Shown one piece after another: positions 1,927 to 50,696 of a stretch of 50,696 nucleotides of DNA; positions within the stretch are counted from its first letter, which is position 1, and every line of letters starts with the position of its first letter. The stretch comes from a virus. A model generated the notes under the pieces. That model was not told the DNA's origin. It ran no database searches and worked only from the letters and a program-made list of their open reading frames with translations. Made by a program: the position numbers and the translations under genes. Location of the stretch: positions 1-50,696 of IMG/VR virus record IMGVR_UViG_3300006752_000043; one strand, written 5' to 3'.

Positions 1927-1971
1927 TAGATACTTAATACTAAAATATATTTAAATAGGAGAATAAAAATT

Positions 1972-6339: not shown

Positions 6340-6380
6340 TTAAACTATAATTAAAATATAATAACTAGGAGATTTTTAAA

Positions 6381-6869
6381 ATGGCAGAGACACTATCAGT
6401 CGCAGAAATGATTCCCAACAAGTTTGAGCCGAAGCGCAAAAACAGGTGGGTTTTCGCTATCGAAGGAATTGATGCTTTTCTTATGAAAACTGCAGCAAGA
6501 CCAACTTATACTACTAACGAAACTACAGTTAACTGGATTAACTCAACAAGATACCTTGCAGGTAAAACCACTTTTGGTGATTTATCTGTAACATTACATG
6601 ACCCAATTGCTCCTTCTGGCGCACAACAAGTTATGGAATGGGTGAGAACTCACTTCGAATCAGTATCAGGCCGTGCAGGTTATGCTGATTTCTACAAGAG
6701 AGATTGCCAAATCAAACTTCTTGATCCAGTTGGAACAGTTGTTGAACTTTGGGATGTTAAAGGATGCTTCCTTACTAACGTATCTTATGGAGACCTAGGA
6801 TATGATGGAGATGATGCAGCAGAAATTTCTTTAACAATCAGATTTGATAACTGCGTACTTCAATATTAA
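6381..6869 (+). CDS. Tail tube protein, T4 gp19-like
   Basis: This 162-residue protein matches T4 gp19 (163 residues) in length. It opens with a typical tube N-terminus containing the segment NKFEPKRKNRWVFAIEGID, has the central TLHDPIAPSGAQQVMEWV, and ends in the strand ISLTIRFDNCVLQY. Members of this family stack as hexameric rings inside the sheath and form the channel for DNA. The start ATG at 6381 sits behind AGGAG. The gene lies between two sheath-like genes (41 nt after one, 75 nt before the other), the usual sheath-tube neighbourhood. Codons look more selected than those of the third sheath gene, in keeping with an abundant structural protein. Confidence 0.92.
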   Translation: MAETLSVAEMIPNKFEPKRKNRWVFAIEGIDAFLMKTAARPTYTTNETTVNWINSTRYLAGKTTFGDLSVTLHDPIAPSGAQQVMEWVRTHFESVSGRAGYADFYKRDCQIKLLDPVGTVVELWDVKGCFLTNVSYGDLGYDGDDAAEISLTIRFDNCVLQY

Positions 6870-6944
6870 AATTATTTTATTGTATTGCTCTTTAACGTTA
6901 TATTTATATTTACTATATAACAAAAATAAGAGTAATATAATAAG

Positions 6945-10585: not shown

Positions 10586-11431
10586 ATGAGCAATAATTTA
10601 AACAATCCTATCAATCCAGAATCATTAGGCAATAGCCCAATTCAGTCATCTAACGTAGCTAAAGATGATTTTGGACTAGAATTAGCAGCTGAAGCTGTTC
10701 CTTTACCTTCTAGAGGCGCTATTTATTCTCAAGATAGCAATTTAATGGGAAAAGAAGTTTTAGAAATTAAGCCAATGACAGCTAAAGAAGAAGATATTCT
10801 AACTTCTAGAGCTTATATTAAAAGTGGAACAGTATTAAGTAAACTAATGAAGAGTTGTTTAATAGACAAAAGTATAAATCCTGATGATTTAATTAGTGGA
10901 GATAGAAATGCTTTGATGGTTGCAGTTAGAGTAACTGGATATGGAGCTGACTATGATGTAGAAATTGATTGTCCAGAATGCGGAGCAAAAAATAAAGAAA
11001 CTTTTGATTTGTCTCAACTAAAAATCAAAAGACTAGAAATTGATCCTGTTGAATACGGTCAAAATCTATTTGAAGTAGAATTACCTGTAACTAAAAAAGT
11101 AGTAAGAGTTAAATTCTTAACAGGCAAAGATGAGCGTGACATGATGATAACTTCTGAAAGGAAAAAGAAAAGCGGGTTTAAAGGCGAAACTTCAATTACA
11201 GATAGATTAGTTAGATCAATAGTATCAGTTAATGGAATTACAGACAAAAATAAGATTAATTTCTTTGTTAAAAATATTCCAGCTAGAGATTCACTTGCTC
11301 TTAGAAGATTTTTAGACAAAAACGAGCCTGGAGTTGACATGAAAGGCTGGTTAACTTGTAGCTCTTGTCACGAAGAAAGTGAGGTAAGACTGCCTATGGG
11401 AGCCTCATTTTTTTGGCCTGACACCGAATAA
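10586..11431 (+). CDS. gp26-like baseplate/tail-assembly protein with zinc-type Cys motifs
   Basis: 281 residues. The pattern VPLPSRGAIYSQDSNLMGKE, EIKPMTAKEEDILTSRAYIK and LISGDRNALMVAVRVTGYG is characteristic of the T4 gp26-type family found next to tail genes. Two Cys pairs, CPECG (around residue 133) and CSSCH (around 258), are spaced like a four-Cys zinc site. In T4 gp26 is described as a baseplate hub protein; its position just upstream of a tape measure gene also fits the tape-measure chaperone slot of other tailed phages. The last part of the gene contains a run of seven T (11408-11414) overlapping a second, start-less ORF, which suggests programmed frameshifting (see next entry). The start ATG at 10586 has AAGGAG upstream. 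Confidence 0.8.
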   Translation: MSNNLNNPINPESLGNSPIQSSNVAKDDFGLELAAEAVPLPSRGAIYSQDSNLMGKEVLEIKPMTAKEEDILTSRAYIKSGTVLSKLMKSCLIDKSINPDDLISGDRNALMVAVRVTGYGADYDVEIDCPECGAKNKETFDLSQLKIKRLEIDPVEYGQNLFEVELPVTKKVVRVKFLTGKDERDMMITSERKKKSGFKGETSITDRLVRSIVSVNGITDKNKINFFVKNIPARDSLALRRFLDKNEPGVDMKGWLTCSSCHEESEVRLPMGASFFWPDTE

Positions 11432-11612
11432 TATAGATTATGTTTTTGAACAAATATTTATATTAATAAAACATTTAGGCTTCGGGTATTACGATGCTTA
11501 TAATCTTCCTGTTTATAAAAGAGAGTGGTTTATAGGAAGAATAACAAAATATTTTAATGATGAAAGAGAAGCTCAAGACGAGCATGTCAAAAAACAAAAG
11601 AAAAGTTTTTAG
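11388..11612 (+). CDS. Start-less overlapping ORF, probable frameshift extension of the gp26-like gene
   Basis: This frame is open from just after a TAA at 11385 to TAG at 11610-11612 and contains no ATG, GTG or TTG codon. Yet it encodes a credible sequence: DYVFEQIFILIKHLGFGYYD, then AYNLPVYKREWFIGRITKYF, then a charged Lys/Glu tail. It overlaps the end of the gp26-like gene and lies in the +1/-2 frame relative to it. The overlap contains TCA TTT TTT TGG (11405-11416), a homopolymeric slip site. A shift there would give a fusion of about 341 residues. The position, directly before the tape measure region, is where G/GT-type frameshift chaperones occur in many tailed phages. The alternative is initiation at a non-standard codon such as CTG 11418. 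Confidence 0.65.
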   Translation, partial: DCLWEPHFFGLTPNNIDYVFEQIFILIKHLGFGYYDAYNLPVYKREWFIGRITKYFNDEREAQDEHVKKQKKSF

Positions 11613-11668
11613 TTAAACATATATATTTATAGCATATTTAAATTATAATATCAAAAAAAGGTGTAAAT

Positions 11669-11923
11669 ATGCTCAATGAAACAAAATTACATAAAATTTC
11701 AGCAAAACTAATACTTGAAAAAAATAATAATATTGATAAACATATTTTTTTTGAAAACAACTTTATAAATAAAGCTTTTATAGAATTATTAAAAGAGTCA
11801 ATTAATTCATATGGGCTTATAGAAAAAAAGTCATGTATCCATAAAATAACAGAAAGTCTAGACAAAAAAAGAGACTTAACTGTAAAATTTAAAAACTTAA
11901 CAGGTATAGACTGGAGTCTTTAA
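11669..11923 (+). CDS. Small protein upstream of tape measure, unknown
   Basis: 84 residues, Lys/Asn/Ile-rich, predicted mostly helical, with no motif I recognise. The ATG at 11669 follows AAAGGTG at good spacing, and the stop codon is directly followed by the tape measure ATG (TAAATG), so the two are probably translationally coupled. The 56 nt between the preceding ORF and this gene are almost pure A/T and include TATAAT at 11644, possibly a promoter, but no matching upstream element was found. Its placement suggests a role in tail assembly; nothing in the sequence proves that. Confidence 0.7.
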   Translation: MLNETKLHKISAKLILEKNNNIDKHIFFENNFINKAFIELLKESINSYGLIEKKSCIHKITESLDKKRDLTVKFKNLTGIDWSL

Positions 11924-14900
11924 ATGTCTGATCAAGTTTCTGATGAACCTTTAGGAAACAGTCTAGGTCAAGCAGGATTATTCTCTAATACTCTTTTTGA
12001 GCAAATGTATGACTTATCTACTAATCTTGTAAACAGTACAAGTACTACTCAAAGTTTAGTAGATACAATGACAGAGCTAAAAAGTGTCCTAGAACAAAAA
12101 ATGTCAAAAACAATGACAGGTTTAAATGAATCTTTTAATTCTAGCACTTATATTAAACAAATGAATGCTACAGCAGATCTTTTTGGCAAAAAAAAACAAG
12201 AACCTTCTATAGTTAATAATATAACAAACGTAGTTAACAATTATTACAACAGCAAAGTAAGAAATACTAATGTCGCAAAGACAGAATCAAAAAAAGGAGT
12301 AAAAGGAAGCGGTGGTTATATAGCAGGTACTCCTGGCGTTGATAAAATACCTGCAATGCTTACAAATGGAGAGTATGTTATAAATGCAGAATCTGCAAGA
12401 AGGCTTGGACCAGAGTTTTTAACAGCTATGAATAGCTACGGAAAAAAAGGTTTCTATAGAGGCGGGCCTATTAGAAGGAAAGGAGGAGGTATTGCTGGTA
12501 TTGTTAATATGTTAGTAGGAATACCAACAAAACTTGCTGGCGCTTTAGGCGGGGGTGCTTTAAACGCTCTTTTACAAAAATCATTAGACTTATTTGGTTG
12601 GTCTGTAGGAAAATTCAATTCAGGCGTCATGTTGTTTATTAAATCTATACCAAAGTTAATAGCAGCACCTTACATGTTAGGCTTAAAGTTTGTAAAAATG
12701 TTTGCAACTGTAGGTAATAAAATAATAGAAGAAAGAAACAATATTAGGCAAACTCTTTCTGACATGAGAGATACAGCTTCTATGTTTTCTTTTGATACAG
12801 GAGAAAAGAAAACAAATCCGCAAGGTGTAAATAGATTTATGAAAGGTGACTTAAGAAGACTTTTTTTAGCTGTTGATTCAACTCTTGTTAATACTTTTGG
12901 TAGAGGTGATGAAGGTTTAACTACTGGTTTAACTTCAACTAAAGAAAACATAGCAGGTATGGGAGATTATATGGAAACAGTAGGGAAAGGTATATTTGGA
13001 GACCCTAAAAAGATGGTTGCTTTACATAGAGCTGTAGGTTCTTTAGGACTAGAATCAGAAGATATATTTATAAATGCGCAGCAAGCTTCAAAAGATCAAG
13101 AGTCAATATTTGCTAGACTTCATAAGGTATTGAAACTAAACAAAAAAGTAGCAAAAGAAATGGGTGTAGATGAAAAAAGACTTGCTTTAAGATTTAATGC
13201 ATTGAAAAAAGATATTACTAATTTTGGCGGAATGTCTGATCAGGCATTGATGAACGTTGCTGCAAGAATGAACAAACTTAAAGTTTCAACAGAAGATGCT
13301 TTAGGTGTATTTAACAAATTTACAGATTTTGAATCTGCAGCAAAATCTGCATCGATGCTTTCACAAGCTTTTGGTATGAATGTTGATGCTCTTAAACTAA
13401 TAAAAGCAGAAGATCCTATGGAAATAATAGAGCACATGAGAGATGCTTTCTTAGAAACAGGTAGATCTTTTGATAAAATGACAAGATTTGAAAGAGGACT
13501 TCTTGAAAGAGAAACAGGTATTTCTTCTAAGACTTTAAAGAGTATTATGCAATATAGAAAAATGGGTTACTCTATGGAAGAAGCTAAAAGAAGAGCAAAC
13601 AAAGGACCTGAAGACAAACAAATAAAAGCTTTAACTAAATTAACAGAAGCAATGTCTTCTTTTAAAGAAACTATAAATACTCTTGTTTTTGACTCTCCTC
13701 TTGACGCTATGTCAACAATGCTATCAGAAAACATAAGAGTTTCAGAAGATGGAACAGGTACTTTTGGACAAATATCTAAGGTATTTACTGATATTGGTTT
13801 GTCTGTAGGGAAATTAGATTTAACTAATTTAAAAACAATATTTGATGTTTTCATGAAACCTTTTATTAAGGATGCACAACATGATGTACTAGTATTAGGA
13901 AAAATATTTAAAAAAACTACTACTATCTTAGAAGAACTTTTGGCGCCTAAAGACAAAAGAAAACAAAACATTAATGCTTATATACGAAAAAACTTTAAAA
14001 AAGATGGAAAAGAAATGATCGAAGCATATAATAAAGGAATGAAAAATGCTTCAAAAAAGAATGATCCAAAATTTAAAAAGTACATTAAAGCTAGAAGACA
14101 ATATTATTCAAGTAAAGTAAAAGAAATTTTTAACATAGCATTTGGCAATGATAAAGATGGGCTGCAGTTAGGAAAGTCTATAGGTGAATTAGGTCTAAAA
14201 GCAGTTGGTATAGCTGTTAGAACAATTGGAGGTGGACAAGATATTGTTTTTGGTTATATTAATAATGCGTTAGAAGAGTTAAGGAGTTATATAAGAGGAG
14301 ACAAAGATTTAAATAGTTTAAAGACTTTAAGGAAAATAACAAATTTCATTGAAAAAAAATTAGACATAGAAAAAGGCGAATTATTTGATATAGGCACAAG
14401 TTTTGTAGGGAACGTAGGTAAAACTGGAGTAAGTATTTTTTCTACTGCTTGGACAGTAGCGTCAGAAGGTATAAAAGAACTTATTAGACAGTTTCAAGAC
14501 CCAAATTCTTTTCTTTCTTTAGAAGTTATTCCAATGATGGAACCTGTTGCAAATGCTTTTGGAGACTTACTTTATAGAGCAATGTTAAAAGCACTTTTAA
14601 TGTTAGATGATACATTAGGAGGATTTTTACAAAATTGGGTTCCTAATTTTGAAAGAACAGAAATAAAAGATAAACAAATTGCTCAAAGTATTTTTGCTAG
14701 AAGCTTTTTGTTAGAAGGGCCTAAAGGTCCAGAAGGAAAAATACAGGGATTTGAAGATTATCTTTCAAGCCCTGTATTACAAGATGTAGAAAGATCTAAA
14801 AGATCTGCTACTTTAGCTAGATCTTCAAACGCAATAAAATTAAAATTTAAAAAAGAAATGGAAAAAAATACTGATAGAATTGAAACAAAAGAAAGAAAAA

Positions 14901-16594
14901 TTAAACAACTTGAAACAAAGTTAAAAAGTAAAGCTTTGACTACTAGCGGGAAAGAAAGCCTAGAAGCACAAAAAAAATCAATTGAAGATCAAATGCAAGA
15001 TTTAAGAAACATTAATGTAAAATATCAACAAGCTTCGAATTTAGCAAGCCAGATAAGAAATAAAAAAGCGTCACACGATAATAATAACAAGCTTTTACAA
15101 CAGATAAGATTTCTTTTATTAGACGATAGAGACAGATTTTCAGATACACTTGTGCCGAAAGGCATGAAAAAAATAAAGGCTCAAATTAAACAAGCACAAC
15201 AAAAAACTGTTACTCAACAAAAAGCAGCACAACAAAAACAAACATTAATTACTCCAAGATCTGGTTATAGACCTACTGTTACACAAAAAGTAATGGAAGA
15301 AGTATTATTTCATCCTAGATATTCTGAAATATTAGCTGACTTTAAAACATTAAATAAAAGTGTATCTTCTTTTTCAAGCAATAAAGATTATGAGAAATAT
15401 GTTGTAAAAGAATTTAAACAAATACAAAAAAAATATAAATTATCAAATAGAAATGTAGGATATGAAGAGTTAAAAGATGCACGTTTAGTACAAGGACCAG
15501 GGTCTGGTGTAGCTGCCGTAGCAATGAAAAAGATTAATAAAGGGTTACAGTTTTTTGGCGTAAAGCCAATGTCAAATAAACTAGCAGATCCAGAATTTGG
15601 CCCTGTAATGGAAACCTATAGAAAAAAAGGGGGGAAAGGAACTATGCCTAAAGAAAGATTAAAAAAGCTTCTTAATTATTCTCGTAATCAAATTTTTGGA
15701 TCATTTCAATCTTACATTTTGGAATCAATTAAAAGTATTTTATCAAATCAGCCTTTTAATGCTGAATATACTGAACAACAATTAAAAGGTATGGGTACAA
15801 GATTAAATACATTAATGAGTTCATTAGTTAGAAAAGATTCTTTAGAGCTTGAAAACGGTGCTGAAGCTAAAATTCAAAAATTTATGAAAGAAGAAATTGT
15901 AAGAGCATATAATGAAGACCCGAATAAGACAGACAAAATAACTCTCGAAGGCACGAATAAAAGTATTTTTAAAAATCTTATTGACAATATAGCAGGAGTA
16001 AGCAAAAAATTTAAAAGTTATGATAAAAATTATAGAAATTTAATGCAGTTATCTGGATTAGTTCCTTATATGGAAGGTGGTAGAAAATATGATTTATATG
16101 GAGGTTCTAACACAGATTATAATGAAGGAACTCAAAAGTTAGGAAAAATACCAATAGAAAATAGAGTAATTGAATTATTAAAAATATTAAGAAGTACTAT
16201 TTATAAAGAAGGAGCTGTAAAGGGAATCGATTCACCAGGTGGTGCTTTTATGAAACAAGTCTTAGAAAAAAATCAAACTATTTTGTTTAACGATCCTATT
16301 GTGCGAAAACCTGTAGCTAAACCTAAAAAGCCTGCAAAAGTTAAGGCTGCAAAAAAGACTAAACCTAGTACTAAACCTGCAAGAAAGCCGCCTAAAAAAA
16401 TGAGTGGTTCTCTTAATCCTACTTTAGATACAGCAACTGCAAGTTTAGGAGATGTTAATGTATTAGTACAAATAGGAAATACAGCGCTTGATGGAGTAAT
16501 TTCTATAGTAAACAGAAGTCCATCTGTTAGAAATGTTATAAACAGATCAGCTTCACAATATTTACAAAATCCATATGAAAATAATGTTGGTTAA
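11924..16594 (+). CDS. Tail tape measure protein
   Basis: 1556 residues. Residues about 127-175 carry the motif common in phage tape measure proteins, GGYIAGTPGVDKIPAMLTNG followed by EYVINAESARRLG. Residues about 188-260 are a Gly/Ala-rich hydrophobic region (GIAGIVNMLVGIPTKLAGAL and LIAAPYMLGLKFV) suited to membrane insertion. The rest is long and helical, with a charged coiled coil around residues 970-1060 and a Lys/Pro/Ala-rich basic linker near 1465-1490 before a hydrophobic C-terminal tail. In the family this protein sits in the tube lumen, sets tail length, and is ejected on infection. It directly follows an 84-residue ORF and overlaps the next gene by 20 nt. Confidence 0.88.
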   Translation: MSDQVSDEPLGNSLGQAGLFSNTLFEQMYDLSTNLVNSTSTTQSLVDTMTELKSVLEQKMSKTMTGLNESFNSSTYIKQMNATADLFGKKKQEPSIVNNITNVVNNYYNSKVRNTNVAKTESKKGVKGSGGYIAGTPGVDKIPAMLTNGEYVINAESARRLGPEFLTAMNSYGKKGFYRGGPIRRKGGGIAGIVNMLVGIPTKLAGALGGGALNALLQKSLDLFGWSVGKFNSGVMLFIKSIPKLIAAPYMLGLKFVKMFATVGNKIIEERNNIRQTLSDMRDTASMFSFDTGEKKTNPQGVNRFMKGDLRRLFLAVDSTLVNTFGRGDEGLTTGLTSTKENIAGMGDYMETVGKGIFGDPKKMVALHRAVGSLGLESEDIFINAQQASKDQESIFARLHKVLKLNKKVAKEMGVDEKRLALRFNALKKDITNFGGMSDQALMNVAARMNKLKVSTEDALGVFNKFTDFESAAKSASMLSQAFGMNVDALKLIKAEDPMEIIEHMRDAFLETGRSFDKMTRFERGLLERETGISSKTLKSIMQYRKMGYSMEEAKRRANKGPEDKQIKALTKLTEAMSSFKETINTLVFDSPLDAMSTMLSENIRVSEDGTGTFGQISKVFTDIGLSVGKLDLTNLKTIFDVFMKPFIKDAQHDVLVLGKIFKKTTTILEELLAPKDKRKQNINAYIRKNFKKDGKEMIEAYNKGMKNASKKNDPKFKKYIKARRQYYSSKVKEIFNIAFGNDKDGLQLGKSIGELGLKAVGIAVRTIGGGQDIVFGYINNALEELRSYIRGDKDLNSLKTLRKITNFIEKKLDIEKGELFDIGTSFVGNVGKTGVSIFSTAWTVASEGIKELIRQFQDPNSFLSLEVIPMMEPVANAFGDLLYRAMLKALLMLDDTLGGFLQNWVPNFERTEIKDKQIAQSIFARSFLLEGPKGPEGKIQGFEDYLSSPVLQDVERSKRSATLARSSNAIKLKFKKEMEKNTDRIETKERKIKQLETKLKSKALTTSGKESLEAQKKSIEDQMQDLRNINVKYQQASNLASQIRNKKASHDNNNKLLQQIRFLLLDDRDRFSDTLVPKGMKKIKAQIKQAQQKTVTQQKAAQQKQTLITPRSGYRPTVTQKVMEEVLFHPRYSEILADFKTLNKSVSSFSSNKDYEKYVVKEFKQIQKKYKLSNRNVGYEELKDARLVQGPGSGVAAVAMKKINKGLQFFGVKPMSNKLADPEFGPVMETYRKKGGKGTMPKERLKKLLNYSRNQIFGSFQSYILESIKSILSNQPFNAEYTEQQLKGMGTRLNTLMSSLVRKDSLELENGAEAKIQKFMKEEIVRAYNEDPNKTDKITLEGTNKSIFKNLIDNIAGVSKKFKSYDKNYRNLMQLSGLVPYMEGGRKYDLYGGSNTDYNEGTQKLGKIPIENRVIELLKILRSTIYKEGAVKGIDSPGGAFMKQVLEKNQTILFNDPIVRKPVAKPKKPAKVKAAKKTKPSTKPARKPPKKMSGSLNPTLDTATASLGDVNVLVQIGNTALDGVISIVNRSPSVRNVINRSASQYLQNPYENNVG

Positions 16595-16862
16595 AAAAAA
16601 ACAAATGAATAAAATTGATTTAAAAAAAGAAATAAATAAAAAGATAGATTCAAGTGGTATAAATTATTATTTAGGTTATTTAATGCATAAAGCTACTGGT
16701 TTAGATAAAGATAAGTGTTTAAACCTTACTAATAAAATAATCGAAAGCAAATTAAATGAAGCAGGAAAAGACTTTGTTGATATATCTAATAGTAAACATA
16801 AGTTAAGTGAATTATCAAACGAGGACCTACTTAAAGATAACGATAAGATTATTAAAGGATAA
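16575..16862 (+). CDS. Small hypothetical protein overlapping the tape measure end
   Basis: Up to 95 residues, Lys-rich and helical, with no recognised domain. In-frame ATGs occur at 16575, 16584 and 16605; the last gives MNKIDLKKEINKK and avoids overlapping the tape measure stop, but none has a clear ribosome site, so coupling to upstream translation is likely. The gene ends 5 nt before the next ATG. Its place between the tape measure and a tube-cap-like gene suggests a tail role, without direct evidence. Confidence 0.6.
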   Translation: MKIMLVKKKQMNKIDLKKEINKKIDSSGINYYLGYLMHKATGLDKDKCLNLTNKIIESKLNEAGKDFVDISNSKHKLSELSNEDLLKDNDKIIKG

Positions 16863-16867
16863 AAATT

Positions 16868-19453
16868 ATGGGCGAATTATCTGCAAAATATAAATTATCT
16901 GAAAAAGGTGAAGTAATAACAGTAAAATATGATGAAAATAATTCGCCTACAGTAGAGTCTGATGAAATTAAATTATCTACTAAAGCTACTAAAAAAAGAT
17001 TTTTAGATTTTCAAAAAAAAGAGTTAGAATATAATGAAGAAAGTGAAACTATATTTTCTTTCATGTCAGCAATAAAAAATGGCAATGAAGAAGTTTCTCC
17101 TTTAAGTGCTGATAAAGAAAGTAGATATAATATAACACCTAAATATAGATTAGACTTTAACAATATATTTGCAGAAGACATATATGCTTCTGAAATGGAA
17201 ATGCTTAGTGGTATAAATCTATCAGAAGGTTTAGGGGGCTCAGTAAATTCAAACATTATTGAATTTAATCAAAAAATATTTTCTGTATTTGAATTTATTG
17301 CAGAATCTATTATTGAAATAATTGCTGCTGAAGCAATATTTACTGCAAACGAACTAATAGCTTTTGCAGCAGGAAATAATTTTGAAACAGGAGTAGAAGA
17401 AAGTTTTCATCATTCTTTTGGTGAATGGGGAACAATTGACGTAACTTACTTATCTAAGTTTTTATTTAGACATTGCAATTATCCTAATAACAAAACAAGA
17501 GCAGTATTTGATATAGATGAAAGAATATCAGCTTTCATTGTAGGGTTTGAAGGATTTATTAATACAGAAAGACTTGTTGATTTTGAAAAAATATTTAAGA
17601 ACAGAAATAAAAACTTAATAAATAGAGAAGTAAAAGATACATATGGCTTAGTTTCTTCTGTTCCTACTTTAAACATTTCTGGATTGCTGGGTGCATCAAT
17701 AAGTTATTTAGCAGATACAATAGGTTCTCTTACTACTTCTGGAATGAAGCAATTTTACTTGTTAAAAAGAAAATTTGCTCATCAAAGTCATTGGAGATCA
17801 CAAGAGCTCCATAAAGCTAAAAGCGATGAAAATGACAACAGATTAGAAAATAATTTTGATTACCAAATGACTAGATTGTCTTTGTACAGATTTAAGTTTA
17901 TTGCAGAAAGAATGCATGTAGGTTTAAAACTAATCAAATATTATCAACAAAGTGCTACTTATGATTCTCATGAAATAAAAGAAAATGGCTTAAATAGATT
18001 AGCACTTAGTAAAAGTGGAGTAAAAGATGAAAACATCCAAATTGGTTCTTCAAGAGACATTACTTTTGATGAATCATATAAGGAACACTTTAAATATATG
18101 TGGGAAGGAACAAATTCAGGAAGTGATAGATCACAGTCTACAAGATTGAGAGCCTTACCACAATTATTTTTAATGTCAAATGACTTTATTAAGAGTCAAA
18201 TTGACGATGGAGAATTTTTAACTCCTGACAAGTCTGTTATGCAAAATTTTGCAGTATCTACTGGTTTAAGCGGAGAGCCAAAAAGATTAAGCGGAGATTT
18301 AGTTAAAAGAATAGAAAAACATTTAGATAATGAGTATATGCCATTTTACTTGCATGATTTAAGAACAAATGAAATAATAAGTTTTCATGCATTTTTAGAT
18401 AACATATCTGATAGCTTTAGTACAGAATATACTCCTCACTTCGGTTTTGGTAGAGCTGAAGAAATAAAACATTATCAAAAAACAACTAGATCAATTAACT
18501 TTAGTTTTACAGTTGCTGCTACTTCAAAAGACGATCACGATTTAATGTGGTTTCAAATAAATAAAATAGTAGCAATGTGTTATCCACAGTGGACTAAAGG
18601 AACTGCTAAGCCTGATCTTGCTGATGAAACTATTGCTTTTTCTCAAATGCCTGCTTCTTCACCTATGATTAGATTAAGAATAGGTGATATTATTAAATCA
18701 AATTATTCTCAAAAAGTATATTCTAGAATAGAAAATATTCAATACAAAAATAATGAGTTTCATATTAACGGAAAGAAACCTGAAAAAGATACAGTCATTT
18801 CTCATTCAAATCAAGAAGGAAACAAGTTTTTAATGCCGGGTATTTATAAAGGTATCCCTACTGGGCCAGGTACAGCTTTTTTTAACATTATTGGATTATT
18901 TGATCCTGATACAGTTAAATATTTTCATATAAAAGAGTATACTAAAATTGAAAAAATAGAAGAAACTGAAGATACATATTTTGAGCTTATACTTGAAGGA
19001 AACATGTATGATGGTTATGAAATATTAGCTGATAAATATTCAATAATTGAAAGCAGTAATAGTTTTATAAAAAATACTGAACAAAAATCAAGCTCTTCAG
19101 ATAATAACAAAAATAAAAAAGTAAATACTGTTAGTGGTTATGCAGATCCTAGAATATCTTCTGAACACAATTCTATTACAAAAAGTTTTGAGTCTGCAGG
19201 TGGTAAAGGTTTAGCAGGCTTTATAACAAGTTTATCAGTAGACTATAATGAAATGCCTTGGGAAACAGCACATAAAGGAAGTAAAGCTCCTATGATGGTT
19301 AAGCTAACAATAGACTTCTCTCCAATACATGACATATCTTTAGGATTAGATCACTCAGGAATGTTAAGAGCTCCTGCTTACAATGTAGGAAGGCTAAATC
19401 AACATTTGTTTGGAGAGCCTACAGAAGATTACTTTACAAAAGAAATAAAGTAA
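16868..19453 (+). CDS. Baseplate / tail tube cap-like structural protein (gp48/gp54 type suspected)
   Basis: 861 residues. The most telling part is residues about 535-600, SINFSFTVAATSKDDHDLMW followed by FSQMPASSPMIRLRIGDII, and the C-terminal GFITSLSVDYNEMPWE and VKLTIDFSPIHDISLGLDHS. This pattern is common in baseplate tube-initiator or baseplate-associated proteins of contractile-tail phages, in which a tube-like domain docks the tail tube to the hub. It lies between the tape measure gene and a LysM-like/hub pair, where such proteins are usually encoded. Residues 130-150 are hydrophobic (FIAESIIEIIAAEAIF), probably a buried helix. The precise T4 equivalent is inferred, not certain. The start is an ATG 5 nt after the preceding stop, behind AAAGG. 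Confidence 0.6.
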   Translation: MGELSAKYKLSEKGEVITVKYDENNSPTVESDEIKLSTKATKKRFLDFQKKELEYNEESETIFSFMSAIKNGNEEVSPLSADKESRYNITPKYRLDFNNIFAEDIYASEMEMLSGINLSEGLGGSVNSNIIEFNQKIFSVFEFIAESIIEIIAAEAIFTANELIAFAAGNNFETGVEESFHHSFGEWGTIDVTYLSKFLFRHCNYPNNKTRAVFDIDERISAFIVGFEGFINTERLVDFEKIFKNRNKNLINREVKDTYGLVSSVPTLNISGLLGASISYLADTIGSLTTSGMKQFYLLKRKFAHQSHWRSQELHKAKSDENDNRLENNFDYQMTRLSLYRFKFIAERMHVGLKLIKYYQQSATYDSHEIKENGLNRLALSKSGVKDENIQIGSSRDITFDESYKEHFKYMWEGTNSGSDRSQSTRLRALPQLFLMSNDFIKSQIDDGEFLTPDKSVMQNFAVSTGLSGEPKRLSGDLVKRIEKHLDNEYMPFYLHDLRTNEIISFHAFLDNISDSFSTEYTPHFGFGRAEEIKHYQKTTRSINFSFTVAATSKDDHDLMWFQINKIVAMCYPQWTKGTAKPDLADETIAFSQMPASSPMIRLRIGDIIKSNYSQKVYSRIENIQYKNNEFHINGKKPEKDTVISHSNQEGNKFLMPGIYKGIPTGPGTAFFNIIGLFDPDTVKYFHIKEYTKIEKIEETEDTYFELILEGNMYDGYEILADKYSIIESSNSFIKNTEQKSSSSDNNKNKKVNTVSGYADPRISSEHNSITKSFESAGGKGLAGFITSLSVDYNEMPWETAHKGSKAPMMVKLTIDFSPIHDISLGLDHSGMLRAPAYNVGRLNQHLFGEPTEDYFTKEIK

Positions 19454-35318: not shown

Positions 35319-35561
35319 ATGAGTAAAGAGATATTATTCTTCAGTACAAAAAAATGCGTTCCATGTACTAGTATAAAACAAAAATTAAATGAAAGTATAA
35401 CTCAAGAATTAAACATTTGTTTTCTTGATGGAGAAGAAGACGTTGACATGTTTATTAAATATAGAGTTATGGGCGTTCCTACTTTTATTAAACTAGTAAA
35501 TGGTGTAGAAACAAATAGAAAATCTGGACATAGAACTGTCCAAGAACTGAGAGAACTATAA
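35319..35561 (+). CDS. Thioredoxin/glutaredoxin-like protein
   Basis: 80 residues. The redox motif CVPC is in FSTKKCVPCTSIKQKL near the N-terminus, and the cis-Pro loop is VMGVPTFIKLVNG, both in thioredoxin-fold positions. It most likely reduces the C-terminal Cys pair of NrdA. Nothing separates a small thioredoxin from a NrdC/NrdH-type glutaredoxin with certainty. The stop overlaps the next start by 1 nt (TAATG), so translation of the ClpP-like gene is coupled. Start ATG 35319 is behind AAAAGG. Confidence 0.85.
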   Translation: MSKEILFFSTKKCVPCTSIKQKLNESITQELNICFLDGEEDVDMFIKYRVMGVPTFIKLVNGVETNRKSGHRTVQELREL

Positions 35562-36163
35562 TGCATTATACTACAGATATATCTAATTTGATTAAAGAGC
35601 TTGAACTAAGACAAGATCCAACAATCATAACTGTAAATGAGTTTAATGAAGAAGCAGCAAGAAAGTTTCAAGATCAAATTTCAATTGCACAAAATAGCGG
35701 CCAAAAAGTAATTCCAGTAGAAATAGATTCTTTTGGAGGAGAAGTTTATTCATTGATGTCAATGATAGCAGCAATTAAAGCTTCTAATATACCAATTGCT
35801 ACAATAGTACAAGGTAAAGCAATGTCTTGCGGTGCTATATTAGCTTCTTTTGGTGAAGAAGGACTTAGATTCATGGATAAAGATGCAACAATGATGATTC
35901 ATGATGTTTCTAGCTATGCTTTTGGAAAGATTGAAGATCTTAAGGCAAATGCAAGAGAAGCTGAAAGATTAAATAAAAAAGTTTATGTTATGATGTCTAG
36001 GAATTGTGGAAAATCTGATGATTATTTTTCTAAATTAATTCATGACAAAGGTCACTCTGATTGGTTTCTTGATGCTGAAGAAGCAAAAAATCACGGTTTG
36101 ATAAATCATATTAGAATGCCTGAATTACAAATCAGCGTTAAAGTAGATATTGATCTAGCATAA
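35561..36163 (+). CDS. ClpP-like serine protease
   Basis: 200 residues, the ClpP length. The fold landmarks are IPVEIDSFGGEVYSLMSMIA (ClpP S-P-G-G region, here Ser-Phe-Gly-Gly), the nucleophile Ser in GKAMSCGAILASFG, the His in ATMMIHDVSSYAFGKIED, and the Asp in HSDWFLDAEEAKNHGLIN. A full Ser-His-Asp triad is therefore plausible. Phage ClpP-like enzymes act either in host/phage protein turnover or as prohead proteases; no capsid gene is in the window, so this cannot be settled. The location between nucleotide genes favours a turnover or regulatory role. Confidence 0.85.
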   Translation: MHYTTDISNLIKELELRQDPTIITVNEFNEEAARKFQDQISIAQNSGQKVIPVEIDSFGGEVYSLMSMIAAIKASNIPIATIVQGKAMSCGAILASFGEEGLRFMDKDATMMIHDVSSYAFGKIEDLKANAREAERLNKKVYVMMSRNCGKSDDYFSKLIHDKGHSDWFLDAEEAKNHGLINHIRMPELQISVKVDIDLA

Positions 36164-36191: not shown

Positions 36192-37535
36192 ATGAGTGAA
36201 ATACTTATAAAAAATATGATCAAACAAATAATCTTAGAAGAACTAATCTTGAAAGAAGAGAAAAAACAAATTTTTCCTCCTGAATTTATAGAACAATTAA
36301 GTTCTTTAATAAAAAATGAAAGTGATGCCACTTTAGAAGAAGCTTCTTTACAAAAAGCAATAGACTTTTTTAAGCCACCTTACACGCCTTTAGAAAAAAA
36401 GCTAATTGTAGCAATTTTATTGACAGCAATGTCAGCAGAGAATTTTAATAAATTATACTCAAGTTTTGCTCCATCTCAAACAGTTGCACAACAACAAAAA
36501 ATTGTTAACAATGTATTAAGAAATAATCCTGACGCGACCCCTAAAGAATTTCTGCGTGATGTAGGTAAAGCAAATCAATTTGTTAAAGATTTTGATAGTA
36601 TCGGGCCAAAGCCTAAAAAACCATTTTTTACAAATAAACTTGTTATAGCATTTCAAAAATTAATAGAACTAGGGTTACTTACTGGAGAATTTTCAGGCGA
36701 AAAAGATAACTTAGAAAATTTAACTTCACAGCTTGAAGATAGATTTTCTGAATTAAATTTATCAAATCTTAAAGATAATAATGAAGAATTGATCAAAAGA
36801 TTACATGGTTATGTCGATCAGTTTCAAGAAATATTAGAAGATTTAAATGATAATATGAAAGAGTTATTAAAGCAAGAAGAAAACAAAATTATAACTAATA
36901 TATTAAGTGGATTAGATTACCTTATAAACCAAAAGCTTGGTTCAAGTGATTGCCAATTAACTAAAGAAGTCAAAGATGAATTATTACTAAAAGCAAAAAA
37001 AGCACGAAAGTTAGCAATCGAATTAAATAGAGAATATAATGATGTCATTAAAGAAAAAATTCGCGCTGAAGAATTTGAAGAAAGAGAACTTCAAAGAATT
37101 ATTGGCGGTGTTGATGGAGACAGTGACGAAGATTTAGAAGATGACGAAGATTTAGAAGATGACGAAGAAGTAGAAGATGACGAAGATTTAGAAGATGATG
37201 AAGAAGTAGATGCTTTTGAAGATTTAGAAGATGATGAAGATGATGAAGAAGTAGATGCTTTTGAAGATTTAGATGACGACGATGATCTAAACGGTTTGGA
37301 AACAGAAGACGGTGAAATAATACCTCCTTCAGAAGCTGCAGATCTTTATTTAGAATTTTATAATGAAGGTCAAAGTGATGAATTTAAAATGTCCAAGTCA
37401 GAATTCAGAGAATTTATTGATAATGATAAAGGCGCTTTTAATGATATATTAGATATTTATGGATCTAATATTTTAAGTAAAGTGGAACGTCCTGCTACTG
37501 GATACGGTAAATTTGATAATAGCGGAGAAGATTAA
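36192..37535 (+). CDS. Acidic repeat protein, possible head-internal or structural protein
   Basis: 447 residues, not a recognised enzyme. The N-terminus IKNMIKQIILEELILKEEKK is amphipathic and includes (I/L)-x-E sites of the type cut by T4-type prohead proteases. Residues about 75-90 form a hydrophobic helix (LEKKLIVAILLTAMSA) and residues about 150-280 are helical with a coiled-coil look. Residues about 314-365 are a run of acidic repeats (DLEDDE and EVDAFE units). The C-terminal 70 residues are ordinary. The acidic block suggests a scaffold-like, DNA-mimic or ion-binding role; this is inference. The stop overlaps the next ATG (TAATG). Confidence 0.65.
   Translation: MSEILIKNMIKQIILEELILKEEKKQIFPPEFIEQLSSLIKNESDATLEEASLQKAIDFFKPPYTPLEKKLIVAILLTAMSAENFNKLYSSFAPSQTVAQQQKIVNNVLRNNPDATPKEFLRDVGKANQFVKDFDSIGPKPKKPFFTNKLVIAFQKLIELGLLTGEFSGEKDNLENLTSQLEDRFSELNLSNLKDNNEELIKRLHGYVDQFQEILEDLNDNMKELLKQEENKIITNILSGLDYLINQKLGSSDCQLTKEVKDELLLKAKKARKLAIELNREYNDVIKEKIRAEEFEERELQRIIGGVDGDSDEDLEDDEDLEDDEEVEDDEDLEDDEEVDAFEDLEDDEDDEEVDAFEDLDDDDDLNGLETEDGEIIPPSEAADLYLEFYNEGQSDEFKMSKSEFREFIDNDKGAFNDILDIYGSNILSKVERPATGYGKFDNSGED
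37131..37287 (+). repeat. Imperfect 18-bp tandem repeat encoding acidic units
   Basis: The unit GATTTAGAAGATGACGAA occurs twice exactly (37131 and 37149) and then in variants, including GAAGTAGATGCTTTTGAA at 37203 and 37248. All keep the frame, giving DLEDDE and EVDAFE peptides. This is a probable slippage-prone stretch that could vary between related phages. Confidence 0.9.
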
Positions 37536-45302: not shown

Positions 45303-45498
45303 ATTAAATATAGGCAATCTTGTTAAAATAAGAAAATTTGATACAAGTAGATTTGATGAAAAGTATCAACCTTATAGTATTGGTATTGTTGTAGAAATAG
45401 ATAAGATTAAAAGGATGTCAATAGTGCCAAGAGCTCTAATTCTATGTAAATCAAAAGTATTAGACACACCTACTTTTTATTTGGAAAAAATACAGTGA
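45292..45498 (+). CDS. Small SH3-like protein (68 residues)
   Basis: The ATG overlaps the previous gene. NIGNLVKIRKFD, YSIGIVVEID and a final FYLEKIQ are alternating strands suggesting an SH3-type barrel; the order resembles the ORFs at 42787 and 45495. Ends GTGA, overlapping the next ORF by 4 nt. Function unknown. Confidence 0.5.
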   Translation: MENELNIGNLVKIRKFDTSRFDEKYQPYSIGIVVEIDKIKRMSIVPRALILCKSKVLDTPTFYLEKIQ

Positions 45499-45674
45499 AT
45501 TTTAATAAATACGACATAGTTCATGTTAAAGATAAAGGAAATAAAAAAATAGGTGTTATCTTAGAAAAGCATGAAGATCAAAAACTTTTAGTTTGTACAG
45601 ATAAAACTATTTATAAAGTTCTCGTAGATAACAAAATAACTACTTATCTAAACTACCACTTCAGCAAAGTATAA
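45495..45674 (+). CDS. Small SH3-like protein (59 residues, GTG start)
   Basis: GTG 45495 sits in the stop of the previous ORF (GTGA) and the frame runs to TAA 45672-45674. NFNKYDIVHVKDKGNKK, IGVILEKHED and YLNYHFSKV give the same strand pattern as its neighbour. It is the last + strand gene of this block; the convergent - strand gene ends 16 nt further on. Confidence 0.5.
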   Translation: MNFNKYDIVHVKDKGNKKIGVILEKHEDQKLLVCTDKTIYKVLVDNKITTYLNYHFSKV

Positions 45675-45706
45675 TGATAAATTAAACATTTTATTTGATT
45701 ATCATT
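45673..45706. terminator. Weak inverted repeat between convergent genes
   Basis: AATGATAA (45673-45680) and TTATCATT (45699-45706) are perfect 8-bp arms around an 18-nt AT-rich loop, with T-rich flank on the right. It could slow transcription from both sides, but it has only one G/C pair per arm. Confidence 0.25.
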
Positions 45707-47373
45707 TTTATGTACTTCTTTAAGCTTGATTCAAAAATATAACTGTGCTTATCTTTTAACTGAGGTATTATAAGTCTAAACGAAGTAGATTTACTTATTA
45801 TGTTTCGAATAATTTTAATTACATTTTCATAGCCAGGGTTACTTGAATATTTTCTTAAATCAAAATTTTCTAGTAAGGAAAAAAGAAAAGAATTAGCAGA
45901 TTCTGATTCGTGCCCAAATTCATCTATTGCATTTAATATTTGTTCTATATCTTCAAACAATATTTCGTTATGGAACATATACTCTGAGAATGGGCTGGAA
46001 GTTATTTCTTTGTTTTTTATAATATCAATTGAAAATTCAATTAATTGTTTTTTCAAAGAAGGATCTTCTAAGAAATTATTATTATAATCTACATTAGAGT
46101 AAATTATGCAATTCCAGAATTCGCATAAATAAAAAGCATCATCTTTATACGTTTTTAAAAAATAATCAATTAAGCTTAACTTATTATTTAACTCAATTAT
46201 GTCTTCTCTTTCAAAAACTATAAGAGGTAGTGGTGAATAGTCACCTGTAATGTCCAGTTCTATTTCTGTTTCTTTATAGTTTTTTATAATATAATTAATT
46301 ATTTCTTTGTCATCTGAATGTTTTAGATAAATACACATTTGACTGTTTTTTGTAGATTCTTCGCTTTCTAGCATTTTTTCGTCTTGCTTGACAATGTCAA
46401 TTGTAGCTTTTTTTGCCATTTCTTCTATTGATGTTTCTTTTTTAGTAAGAGCATGACCTTTAATAGCATTTATTATTTTTTGATTATTTATTGTTTGACA
46501 AACTTCTTCGTATGATGATAATCCTTCATGTCTATTATTTGCATTAACAGTTGATCCTCCTTCAAATTTTATTTCAACTATATCTTTTTCTCCGCTAGAA
46601 ACTTCATATGATTCTGGATCATTTTTTATTAAGCTTATACAGATTCTTCTATAGGCATCATCTATTCTATAACCTTTGTTTTTTATAAAATAATACATGT
46701 GCAAATTACCAGCATACATTGGAAATCTATTGCCTTCATAAGAAGCAGTACACCAATTAACTCTTCCTATTTGTGTTCCTTTGTCGTCAACTTCGTAATT
46801 TTCTTCAGCGCCATCATGCAAACCTACAGCCCAGCTTATAGAGCCTAAAATAGTTTTTGGGTAAACTACTGTCCAATCGTTTCCAACATATATTACTTCA
46901 AAATCACTTGTTTTGTTTTTTGAATTTTCTGACCAAATCATGTTGCTTTTAAGATTTGCTCTGTTTCTGCACTTTTCTCTAAATTTCGTTCTAGTACTAC
47001 TCTTTTTTTCTTCTAACTTGGATTCATAAAAACCTCTTAGCTCACTTGAAGTAATGTCTCCTGCACTTATTTTTCTTTTTATTTCACTATCTACATTAGT
47101 ATAAAACACAGAAAATTTTTCAATTGCATCAAGAATATGCTCTATAGGTTCATCATTACTTGTCAAGTCTGAATGTATTACATTGCTAAATTTAGAATAT
47201 ATTTTATTCCATTTGTTTTCAAGTCTTGAAAACACTTTGTTTTGATCACTTTTACTTAAGTTTCTACTATTTGAAATTTCTAATTTTATTTTTTTCAAAG
47301 GAATATTTTGATTTTCAATTATGAAGTTTTGTTTCCATTCTACAAGTAGACTTTTAAATTCTTTTCTATACAC
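45691..47373 (-). CDS. Large protein with putative head-targeting N-terminus, shared WCT domain
   Basis: 560 residues starting at GTG 47373, which follows AAAGGACAAATC and gives YRKEFKSLLVEW in register with its two neighbours; the longer frame from 47415 is not conserved. The Leu-Val-Glu of the start segment matches the (I/L)-x-E rule of T4 gp21-type prohead proteases. The middle domain (WTVVYPKTILGSISWA, GRVNWCTASYEG, NLHMYYFIKNKG, RRICISLI, STVNANNRH) is shared with the gene at 48316-50625. The C-terminal half is helical with no recognised motif. The likely role is an internal virion protein delivered with the DNA; this is inferred. The gene at 47388 lies 14 nt upstream. Confidence 0.7.
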   Translation of the reverse strand: MYRKEFKSLLVEWKQNFIIENQNIPLKKIKLEISNSRNLSKSDQNKVFSRLENKWNKIYSKFSNVIHSDLTSNDEPIEHILDAIEKFSVFYTNVDSEIKRKISAGDITSSELRGFYESKLEEKKSSTRTKFREKCRNRANLKSNMIWSENSKNKTSDFEVIYVGNDWTVVYPKTILGSISWAVGLHDGAEENYEVDDKGTQIGRVNWCTASYEGNRFPMYAGNLHMYYFIKNKGYRIDDAYRRICISLIKNDPESYEVSSGEKDIVEIKFEGGSTVNANNRHEGLSSYEEVCQTINNQKIINAIKGHALTKKETSIEEMAKKATIDIVKQDEKMLESEESTKNSQMCIYLKHSDDKEIINYIIKNYKETEIELDITGDYSPLPLIVFEREDIIELNNKLSLIDYFLKTYKDDAFYLCEFWNCIIYSNVDYNNNFLEDPSLKKQLIEFSIDIIKNKEITSSPFSEYMFHNEILFEDIEQILNAIDEFGHESESANSFLFSLLENFDLRKYSSNPGYENVIKIIRNIISKSTSFRLIIPQLKDKHSYIFESSLKKYIKMIIK

Positions 47374-47387
47374 GATTTGTCCTTTTT

Positions 47388-48269
47388 TTAAGCATTTGTT
47401 ATTATTATAATACAATTATTAAAGACTCTTTTCAATTCATTAAACATTTTAAAAACAAAGTAATAAGAATCTGTAAAAGTTTTTTGCAAAACAGCTTTTT
47501 CTTCTTTAGAAAACTTATAACTTAAATTATTAATTTCTTGTTTTATTGTTTCTATATTTTTAATATAGCAGTAAGACATTATAGAAGCATGCAAGTCATT
47601 CATATCAGCTGTAGGAGTAAAATTTATTTCTTCAAAAAACTTTTTAATTAAACTACTACCAGCTGAAATTGCTATTGTTCCTTTTTTTAATATTTCATGC
47701 ACACTAATATTATTATTATTTACTTTTTCATGTGGTTTATCTAAATTTTCTAGATTTTTATTTATTATATTTAAAGAGGCATTAGAAAAATAAAGTTCTT
47801 GTGAGCTTATTCCACTAAAAAGAGTGTGCTCCATATCATGAAGAGTCCAACTATATATTAAAGATTCATCTTGATCGCTTAGATTTTGAGTAAAATCACC
47901 TTCAGTGAAATGAATAATAACACACTCGTCATTTGATGATACATTTAATACTTCACTAGATTTCTCTTCGTTGCCGCTAAAAATAAAAAAATCAGAAATC
48001 ATATCAATAACTTCATTGTTCTTAGGCAGAACTAATCCAAAATCAATGTATTCTTGATAAGCTACATCTTTTATTGACTCTACTTCATTTTCTTCTATTT
48101 TATCTTTGATAAAATCTAAAATACCTGTTATTTCTTCACTAGAAGGATTTACTAACCAGCCAGAAGATTTTTCCAAGTCAGAATGAAACTTTTCATTCTT
48201 TCCTCTTTCATTTATAAAGTTTTGATTCCATTCTGTTAGTAAGTTTTTAAACTCTTTTCTATTCATCAT
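47388..48269 (-). CDS. Protein with the shared N-terminal peptide, different body
   Basis: About 293 residues. I place the start at ATG 48269 (MMNRKEFKNLLTEWNQNF), because its position relative to AAAAGG is identical to that of the gene starting at 50625; the TTG at 48275 is upstream of the conserved block. After the peptide the sequence lacks the WCT domain of its neighbours; it has an acidic region, SWTLHDMEHTLFSGISSQEL and a long helical C-terminus. No known function. Cleavage after Leu-Thr-Glu (residues 11-13) would release a near full-length protein. The 5' end is a near copy of that of the 769-residue gene. Confidence 0.68.
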   Translation of the reverse strand: MMNRKEFKNLLTEWNQNFINERGKNEKFHSDLEKSSGWLVNPSSEEITGILDFIKDKIEENEVESIKDVAYQEYIDFGLVLPKNNEVIDMISDFFIFSGNEEKSSEVLNVSSNDECVIIHFTEGDFTQNLSDQDESLIYSWTLHDMEHTLFSGISSQELYFSNASLNIINKNLENLDKPHEKVNNNNISVHEILKKGTIAISAGSSLIKKFFEEINFTPTADMNDLHASIMSYCYIKNIETIKQEINNLSYKFSKEEKAVLQKTFTDSYYFVFKMFNELKRVFNNCIIIITNA

Positions 48270-48287
48270 TATCAATAACCTTTTATT
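48226..48287 (-). repeat. 62-nt 5' cassette, copy 1
   Basis: Running from the ribosome site through codon 14, this is 59/62 identical to 50582-50643. It contains AATAAAAGG, the start codons ATGATG and the codons for NRKEFKNLLTEW. Downstream sequences of the two genes do not match at nucleotide level. Confidence 0.9.
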
Positions 48288-48315
48288 GTAATTTTTATTT
48301 TTTAAACTAGAAAAA

Positions 48316-50625
48316 CTATAACAATCGTTTAATATAGTCTCTTAATAAACTTTCACCTGTTAAGTTTTGATACTGTGAAATTGTATCAGGATACTTTGCA
48401 GCAAATGCATTCTTATCAAACTCAGATCTTAAGTTGTCATAAATTATCTGAAGATCATTTGGCTCTAAACCTAAATCCACCAAGTCGTCTCTTTCAGATA
48501 AAAACTTCATAAATTTTGGTCTTATTTTTCCTTCTTCTATTATATTTCTTAAAACTATTCGTGTTGTTTCTATATCGAACTTACTTAAGTCTTTTCTTTT
48601 GACTATATCGACCTTCTGACGTTGTGCGCCTTCGACTGACATTGTGATTAATTCATCTTCTTCAGCTTTTTCGGCTGCAATTGTTAAAGGGTTTCTACTT
48701 TCTAAATTGTTTTTAGCTTCTTTTCTTACTTCACTATCTTTGTTTAAAATTAATTTTTTGAGCACATCATCTGGTGTTCTTTTGTTTTTTGCAAGTTCTA
48801 AGTAATAACTTAACCCTTGCATAGAGCTTTTTGAAGCTAAATTATATATGTTTTCAAACAATTCTACAGGTAATTTATCATGATTAATAACATCAATATA
48901 ATCAATATCTAAATCATCAGTAACATACCCGTAAGGATCATCAGGAGGCAATATCTTTTCAAAAAATTTATTTGAAATAGCTTCAGGAAGAAGCTTGTCA
49001 CGAAGTATAAAACCCCTTGCTACATAGTCAATATTTTCAAATTCAATATAACTAAAAAACAAAGTATAGACAGATTGATCTTTTTTTCTTATTCCTTCAT
49101 CTACCTTGTCGTAAAAATATTCAACTGCAGATGTAAAGTCACCTTGAATATACTCTTCAAGAACTTCTTTCATTATTTCTTGAGCTTCCTCGTCTAACTC
49201 GCTAAATCTTGAATATTTGATTACACTTAAACATGCATTATATTGAATCTCTTCTCTTAAAAAATCAAACTCAAGTTTTACTTTATAGTCATATTCATCT
49301 TTAATTATTGTATTTAAGACATCTGGAGGACAAGCACTATTTGAAACTAGTATTTTGTAATAGTTAACAGAATGTTTATTTTCAGGTAAAGCTTTAATTT
49401 TATCAAAAGGGCAGTTTTCGTTTGATATTAATCCATCTATAATTTTTTGATCAGTTTCAGTTTTAAGTAAATCTGATATGTTTTCACTATTTAAATGTCT
49501 TGACTTGATTGCAATATTTCTTAACACTTTATTATCTTCATGAACTAAATCTTTGTTTACTATTTTTTCTGCATCCATTGAATGCATAAGTATATTTTCA
49601 AGTTCACTTGCAAATAATTCAATATTATCTTGATTTGCTGCTTTTAATATTTTATATTGCTCAAAATTTACTGACTCATAATAAGATATCGGATCTATTT
49701 CAAGACGCTCAGGCTTTTCAGCATCTTTTATTAAGTCATTAAACCTGCTTCCAATATAACTTCTAAGATTTTTTTCGTCAGTTACTTGATTATTACCGTT
49801 TACAGATGCATTGCCTCCTTTAAAACCAACAGTGCTATCTTTTTTAAAGAAGCTTATACATAATTTTCTATCTAGATCTTGTACATTCATATTTTTCTTT
49901 ATACAATAGTACATATGAAGATTAGCTTGTCTATGGTAATTTAAAAACATGTTTCCGCTAGGTTTGTTTTTCTTTGGCACTATACTTGTGCACCAGTTTA
50001 TTGCACCAATGTTGTCACCTACTCCTGCCTTTACAGTTGTATCGTATTCTAATCTTTCTCCATTCCAAAATGATCTTGCTAAACTAATTGATCCTTTTAT
50101 AGTTTTAGGATAACATATAATCCACTCGTCATCGTTTAAAATGACTTCAAAGTCAGGATTAATATCACCTTGGCTTAAACATTCTATAAAAATACTTGAA
50201 TTTAGATTTAAGTCTGATCTAGCCTCTAAAAAATTTTTTACATCGTTATATGTTGTTGTTTTTGGTTCATCGTCTTTATCGTTATATATTGTGATATCAG
50301 GTGTTAACTTTATTCTAAAGCCACCTGGCACATTTACAATTGCTTCACCCTTTTTATACCACTTATTCTTTATAGATGATTCATAATCTTGATATAAACC
50401 TAAAATATCATCTAAAGAGTGCGCTTGATCAGACTGATAAGTATTAATAATCACTTTTAAAAAATTTTGGTCTTGAGAAGCTTTTTTATTATTTTTAAGA
50501 ATGTTATAATCATCTTCTCCAATAACTTCTATAACTTCATCTCGACTTATTTCTAACAATAGATTGTTATTTATAAGATTTTTCCATTCTGTTAATAAGT
50601 TTTTAAACTCTTTTCTATTCATCAT
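48316..50625 (-). CDS. Large protein with putative head-targeting N-terminus, WCT domain and repeats
   Basis: 769 residues from ATG 50625 (MMNRKEFKNLLTEWKNLI), with AAAAGG upstream. The N-terminus matches the pattern of T4 internal proteins (basic residue, E-F, then hydrophobics and (I/L)-x-E). Residues about 175-310 hold the shared domain: WIICYPKTIKGSISLARSFW, GAINWCTSIV, MFLNYHRQANLHMYYCIKK, RKLCISFF, GGNASVNGNNQ. Residues about 360-650 look like helical repeats of the HEAT/LRV sort (VNYYKILVSNSACPPDVLNT; YYLELAKNKRTPDDVLKKLI). The C-terminus is helical. A DNA-co-injected or head-internal role is proposed from the N-terminus; the catalytic role, if any, is unknown. Confidence 0.7.
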   Translation of the reverse strand: MMNRKEFKNLLTEWKNLINNNLLLEISRDEVIEVIGEDDYNILKNNKKASQDQNFLKVIINTYQSDQAHSLDDILGLYQDYESSIKNKWYKKGEAIVNVPGGFRIKLTPDITIYNDKDDEPKTTTYNDVKNFLEARSDLNLNSSIFIECLSQGDINPDFEVILNDDEWIICYPKTIKGSISLARSFWNGERLEYDTTVKAGVGDNIGAINWCTSIVPKKNKPSGNMFLNYHRQANLHMYYCIKKNMNVQDLDRKLCISFFKKDSTVGFKGGNASVNGNNQVTDEKNLRSYIGSRFNDLIKDAEKPERLEIDPISYYESVNFEQYKILKAANQDNIELFASELENILMHSMDAEKIVNKDLVHEDNKVLRNIAIKSRHLNSENISDLLKTETDQKIIDGLISNENCPFDKIKALPENKHSVNYYKILVSNSACPPDVLNTIIKDEYDYKVKLEFDFLREEIQYNACLSVIKYSRFSELDEEAQEIMKEVLEEYIQGDFTSAVEYFYDKVDEGIRKKDQSVYTLFFSYIEFENIDYVARGFILRDKLLPEAISNKFFEKILPPDDPYGYVTDDLDIDYIDVINHDKLPVELFENIYNLASKSSMQGLSYYLELAKNKRTPDDVLKKLILNKDSEVRKEAKNNLESRNPLTIAAEKAEEDELITMSVEGAQRQKVDIVKRKDLSKFDIETTRIVLRNIIEEGKIRPKFMKFLSERDDLVDLGLEPNDLQIIYDNLRSEFDKNAFAAKYPDTISQYQNLTGESLLRDYIKRLL

Positions 50626-50643: not shown

Positions 50644-50652
50644 ATAGCACTC

Positions 50653-50683
50653 ACGTGTATATTTTTCATTTTATAATTATAAT
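50653..50683 (+). promoter_or_regulatory. Promoter P5, ACGTGTATA-N16-TATAAT, pointing out of the window
   Basis: ACGTGTATA at 50653-50661 (7 of 9 match to TCGTGTAAA) is followed after 16 nt by TATAAT at 50678-50683. It is divergent from the - strand gene starting at 50625 and should drive + strand genes beyond the right edge. Confidence 0.55.
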
Positions 50684-50696
50684 TGTGTATATAAAT

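Follow-up and report, generated by a model that had tools for sequence, protein, structure and literature searches.

The window analysed here is a 50,696-base stretch of DNA (IMG/VR viral record IMGVR_UViG_3300006752_000043), without end repeats and probably a fragment of a larger genome. Its source, judging from the sequence, is an uncultured T4-related (T4-superfamily) virus of bacteria. The right end of the window carries three minus-strand genes, convergent to the plus-strand genes, that encode proteins A (769 aa; 48316–50625), B (293 aa; 47388–48269) and C (560 aa, GTG start; 45691–47373). All three begin with M-x-RKEFKxLLxEW, the common start from which a preliminary description of the locus had proposed a capsid-targeting-like signal; this N-terminal segment is called the tag below. 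It covers 50551–50625 in A (MMNRKEFKNLLTEWKNLINNNLLLE, next residues ISRD), 48207–48269 in B (MMNRKEFKNLLTEWNQNFINE, next residues RGKN) and 47314–47373 in C (MYRKEFKSLLVEWKQNFIIE, next residues NQNI), all on the minus strand. The starts used for B (ATG, 48269) and C (GTG, 47373) lie six bases after AAGGA, and replace program-called TTG starts that are artefacts. Structure models predict a helix at residues 4–22 of A and 4–21 of B, the latter with a low-confidence stretch at 18–37; the models are moderate to poor overall (predicted local distance difference test scores of 68 for B and 63 for A).

The bodies behind the tags differ. A and C have a WCT...HMYY domain in common (BLASTP, 31% over 317 aa, E 8e-22), whereas the similarity of B to A is confined to the tag (14/14, BLASTP), as the preliminary description had it. 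The conserved core of this domain, located by alignment, lies at about residues 159–279 of A (49789–50151) and approximately at 46531–46911 in C. In A it is followed by helical (HEAT/LRV-like) repeats and a C-terminal ESLLRDYIKRLL; C ends in ESSLKKYIKMIIK. Family searches matched HEAT/LRV repeats in some of the WCT relatives only. B consists of the tag and a body of about 270 aa with an invariant HDxxH, of no known family; as a guess, the HDxxH might bind metal. The bodies of A, B and C fell into no family in Pfam, PHROGs, NCBIfam, PADLOC or PDB sequences, with no convincing PHROG match, and Foldseek with the structure models gave no match at E <0.001. By sequence, A and C are best described as repeat proteins with an unclassified domain. 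The WCT proteins (A, C and relatives) end in ES(L/I)LRxYIKxLL, represented by GESLLRDYIKRLL in A (48319–48357; kept in 7/7 aligned WCT proteins) and, by alignment, FESSLKKYIKMIIK in C (45694–45735). The same ending closes an unrelated protein adjoining the capsid gene of a related contig (G002, 133 kb), and is a possible second, C-terminal signal.

Exact pattern scans of viral contigs found RKEFKxLLxEW in 13 stretches and its first ten residues in 20. Aligned tags of this kind (the first dialect; a second is described below) are 20–27 residues long, with the consensus MSKLNRKEFKELLTEWKQNFINE↓R, where the arrow marks a predicted cut. Positions W+1 to W+8 lie outside both scan patterns and are nevertheless conserved: information content is 2.3–3.2 bits through W+8 and then about 1.1. 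The drop falls directly after an (I/L)xE triplet, at W+7 (INE, ISE, IIE, LNE) or, in the WCT proteins, at W+11 (LLE). T4 gp21, the prohead protease, cleaves after L/I-x-E (PMC9026906). In a narrow post-tag interval, (I/L)xE was present in 18 of 19 proteins, compared with a null mean of 2.1 and maximum of 8 (5000 draws from the proteins' own bodies). In an enlarged set, (I/L/V/M)xE occurred within about 20 residues after the W in 51/51 tagged proteins, a set that is not fully independent, several members being homologous.

Two sites in each tag fit the published rule. One is LTE↓W or LVE↓W, the gp21-type cut of the preliminary description, and the other lies 8–12 residues further on. The W and the residues that follow it match the rest of the tag in conservation, which collapses only after the second site; a cut there (INE↓R in B, IIE↓N in C, LLE↓I in A) is therefore more likely than one at LTE↓W. 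Given this profile, cutting at LTE↓W alone was considered less probable; in A it is the alternative to LLE↓I, and it may serve as a second cut.

With the tag removed, the 51 tagged proteins fall into 21 BLAST clusters, with lengths from 75 to 954 aa, and diverged forms of the tag (MKRSNTSKLLNEWKSFLNE↓E, MNRKETKLLVEGWRNLLKE↓T, MKTKDLLNEWKNFLNKEMINE↓V) stand on further bodies. Most of the tag-based searches enrich for the tag itself. The exception, and the least biased test of N-terminal confinement, is a scan in which LxxEW(K/R)xFLNE could match at any position in 2.9 million viral contigs; it gave 15 matches (about 11 distinct), all 15 of them no more than 8 residues from an ATG or GTG. A looser pattern, (LIVM)2xxW(RK..)xx(FLYIM), was found at 28 N-termini in 530 predicted proteins, compared with 1.04 expected from its internal rate, in relatives that had been fetched partly by the same motif. 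ORF (open reading frame) starts in the relatives are simple-script predictions.

The tag is linked to the head genes by the relatives. A gp21-type protease, which the preliminary description had suggested looking for, is encoded in G001 (153 kb), G002 and G020 (239 kb) (PF03420, E about 1e-29), and in two more tagged contigs, G025 and G026. In the first three, gp21 forms a cluster with the genes for terminase, portal, scaffold and major capsid protein, arranged as in T4; gp23 was found in G001 and G002, and G020 has a protein with the same N-terminal sequence at the same place. The gp21 proteins of G001, G002, G020 and G026 carry LITEW at or close to residues 6–10 (that of G026 begins MNTPRLITEW). 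L(L/I/V)xEW was counted 30 times in a set of 836 predicted proteins, with 26 of the occurrences starting near the N-terminus, 23 of them in tagged proteins and three in gp21. Three of the other four belong to one conserved protein whose gene stands between those for portal and gp21, in the same three genomes as the gp21 with the motif and in the position of T4 gp67/gp68; the last is a stray elsewhere. This near confinement to tags, gp21 and a head-operon protein is the strongest reason for reading the tag as a prohead address. The capsid protein N-terminus of the relatives, aligned by eye, reads RLVEKW...VLRE↓SN, with VLRE in place of T4's FLTE↓A.

We consider it probable that the tag is a T4-type capsid-targeting propeptide, removed by gp21 and carried by packaged, presumably injected accessory proteins. 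During head assembly, each newly made protein would attach to the prohead core by its roughly 20-residue helix (RKEFKxLLxEWxxNF). The docking partner is probably the one that also brings in gp21, a protein with LITEW at its own N-terminus. Cleavage by the prohead protease behind the closing (I/L)xE of the helix (INE↓R, IIE↓N, LLE↓I) would then release the mature body within the head, and from there it would presumably be injected with the genome. The bodies (WCT and repeats in A and C, HDxxH in B) would be exchangeable accessory cargo that likely acts when infection begins. Docking, packaging, cleavage, injection and an anti-host role are what we infer for the tagged proteins; modularity, N-terminal confinement, an abrupt end at (I/L)xE, unrelated bodies and the motif on gp21 can be read from the sequences themselves.

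A promoter-like, AT-rich motif lies upstream of A on the minus strand (50652–50685, ending TATACACGTG), and is the apparent counterpart of a motif in the relatives, TATTATAAT...ATTTACAC, found upstream of 13/32 first-dialect genes, 3/29 second-dialect genes and 14/762 other genes. Two more AT-rich TTTACACG motifs occur on the minus strand of the window, at 40654 and 25666, with no ORF directly downstream. A T4-late-type promoter (TATAAATA) showed no enrichment upstream of tagged genes. The DNA around the starts of A and B is near-identical over about 60 nt, so this 5′ cassette was copied, and in related contigs a 70-nt upstream cassette recurs together with the tag. The common N-terminus could then be a by-product of duplicated 5′ cassettes (promoter, ribosome-binding site and first codons) spread for expression, with no addressing role. 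We regard this as very improbable. The peptide is kept across diverged dialects while its codons vary, with 4.5 synonymous and 4.5 amino-acid differences per 19 codons, whereas under drift alone amino-acid changes would predominate. Conservation also ends at a protein-level landmark, and gp21 has LITEW without the cassette.

The tagged genes adjoin metabolism and replication genes (PHP-type DNA polymerase-like, epimerase-like), not the head operon, and they have a promoter-like motif of their own that is absent upstream of the head genes. Both features would suit a peptide for docking or localisation at another phage structure or at a host complex (e.g., replication, transcription or membrane assembly), next to which the (I/L)xE would be incidental. 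This explanation seems improbable, since LLxEW, apart from the tags, is nearly restricted to gp21 and one head-operon protein, a cleavage motif follows every tag, and the T4 ip genes likewise lie away from the head operon.

Genes near the first-dialect ones carry a second type of tag, M(R/K)ITExxLRxIIxxxIxE↓, and its loose helix motif gave 18 N-terminal matches compared with 2.8 expected. It stands on many small unrelated proteins in G001 (146121–150796), G004 (1351 and 4774), G005 (8176–8941), G009 (10665–11978) and G020 (1671 and 45385–46209). These tags resemble the starts of small head-operon proteins (G001 72176–72974, G002 53112, G020 121413–122202). With second-dialect tags on small proteins within the head operon, and some tagged proteins near the first-dialect genes being small and lysine-rich, the tags may indeed target the prohead while the cargo, like T4 gp67/gp68, serves as structural or core-forming protein and is not injected against the host. 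We think this unlikely, if less easily dismissed: A, B and C are large, variable between relatives and situated in an accessory region, and they have many unrelated counterparts, as is the case for the T4 ip genes.

The proposed propeptide has precedents. The propeptides of the T4 internal proteins (IPs), of 10–19 residues, direct the proteins to the core, and those of IPII and IPIII are identical (PMC9026906). The leader is the sole common part of Ip1-3, each of which blocks a different type IV restriction enzyme (PMC12373910), and it was through this leader that the injected anti-restriction proteins of T4 were recognised. Read from the T4 genome as a control, these leaders are MKTYQEFIAE↓A and MKTFKEF...ITE↓A. 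Like IPI-III, the tagged proteins have a short N-terminal leader with an L/I-x-E end on otherwise unrelated accessory proteins, in a lineage with gp21, and their genes lie outside the head operon, as the ip genes do in the T4 genome. Unlike the IP leaders, the tag is 20–27 residues long and has LLxEW, and the cargo is larger (up to 769–954 aa compared with 95–193 aa), of many more families, and without sequence homology to the IP bodies. The likeness to the T4 signal noted in the preliminary description therefore holds for EF...(I/L)xE, while the rest is unlike MKTYQEFIAE. The best match of the tag is the relatives' own gp21 N-terminus (LITEW), with T4 gp21 (LLIETW) and gp23 (ELLNKW) in addition. 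The gp21 start has no RKEFK portion, and its W is followed 12 residues later by the second site (IKE). For T4 gp21 itself, the propeptide (LIE-9) has been proposed to resemble a capsid-targeting sequence (CTS) (PMC9026906). The tags are CTS-like by every feature that a sequence can test, without recognisable homology to the T4 IP leader.

T4 Alt, a large head-packaged protein, has a propeptide at either terminus and is cleaved at both ends (PMC9026906). A and C are likewise large, with conserved sequences at both ends; unlike Alt, they match no ADP-ribosyltransferase family, and no Pfam or PDB sequence match to such a domain was found in A, B or C. In the giant phages SPN3US/phiKZ, the paralogues gp53/gp54 have an identical N-terminal propeptide, MANFVKSKLARESVE, with several candidate cut sites (PMC5694885). 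A common N-terminal segment with several candidate sites is a feature of the tagged proteins too, but the SPN3US/phiKZ protease and motif (AxE/SxE) are diverged and LLxEW is lacking. A literature search for the letters of the tag found no paper. The proposal of a capsid-targeting-like propeptide on unrelated cargo is strongly supported by comparison of sequences (gp21/gp23 in relatives, about 21 bodies, LITEW on gp21).

Several results weigh against this proposal. Against 50,697 phage records, tblastn with A, B, C or the tag peptide as query gave no match, and the nearest cultured relative checked, Flavobacterium phage immuto, shows no tags of this kind over the scanned 150 kb of its 160 kb. 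The TATTATAAT...ATTTACAC motif was not seen upstream of gp20-gp23, and for this reason the tagged genes are not necessarily expressed late. Lastly, gp21 was not found in the 50.7-kb window, which does not refute the proposal because the window is a fragment without the head module.

The plus strand of the window carries tail genes, that of the sheath among them, together with ribonucleotide reductase, ThyX and further metabolism genes. The sheath is 47–61% identical to those of G001, G002 and G003 (87 kb), where it lies about 40 kb from the tagged genes; in the window, G002 and G003 alike, the tagged genes are convergent to the sheath and near an epimerase-like gene. A sheath-like row occupies 1–10568 of the window (an open 641-aa C-terminal part, a 1455-aa sheath and a 1207-aa neighbour), and the relatives too have several sheath-like copies. 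A ClpP-like (S14) protease gene (35561–36163) lies between a thioredoxin-like gene and a possible further tagged gene of 447 aa (36192–37535, plus strand), whose N-terminus, MSEILIKNMIKQIILE↓ELIL, is second-dialect-like, a weak case. As a processing enzyme the ClpP-like protease was set aside because its best Pfam match is the Clp family, its neighbours are metabolism genes and a true gp21 is present in relatives. A tagged 167-aa protein in G001 (151137–151640) and L160 is GNAT acetyltransferase-like by eye, with no Pfam match at E 0.05. Arrays of apparently paralogous proteins of about 160 aa, starting with MTY/MSY, lie near tagged genes in G001 (1327–6463) and G004 (13333–17765).

What is new here is the tag as a variant of the already known T4-type capsid-targeting propeptide, and with it the testable idea that a short motif, borne by the protease as well, is what the prohead recognises in its cargo. 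More tentatively, and as a conjecture that we hold open without favouring it, this uncultured T4-superfamily clade may run a large protein-delivery programme, in which interchangeable tags, of two dialects or more (LLxEW..FINE and ITExxLRxII..IxE), stand on the products of dozens of unrelated genes, many of them controlled by a common promoter. The first dialect would have been copied from, or be convergent on, the N-terminus of the prohead protease, and cargo of up to 110 kDa, some of it double-tagged, would be loaded and injected. If so, a genome scan for the tag alone would list the injected effectors of these phages, and a readable tag would turn many unknown genes of an uncultured lineage into a defined list of likely injected proteins.

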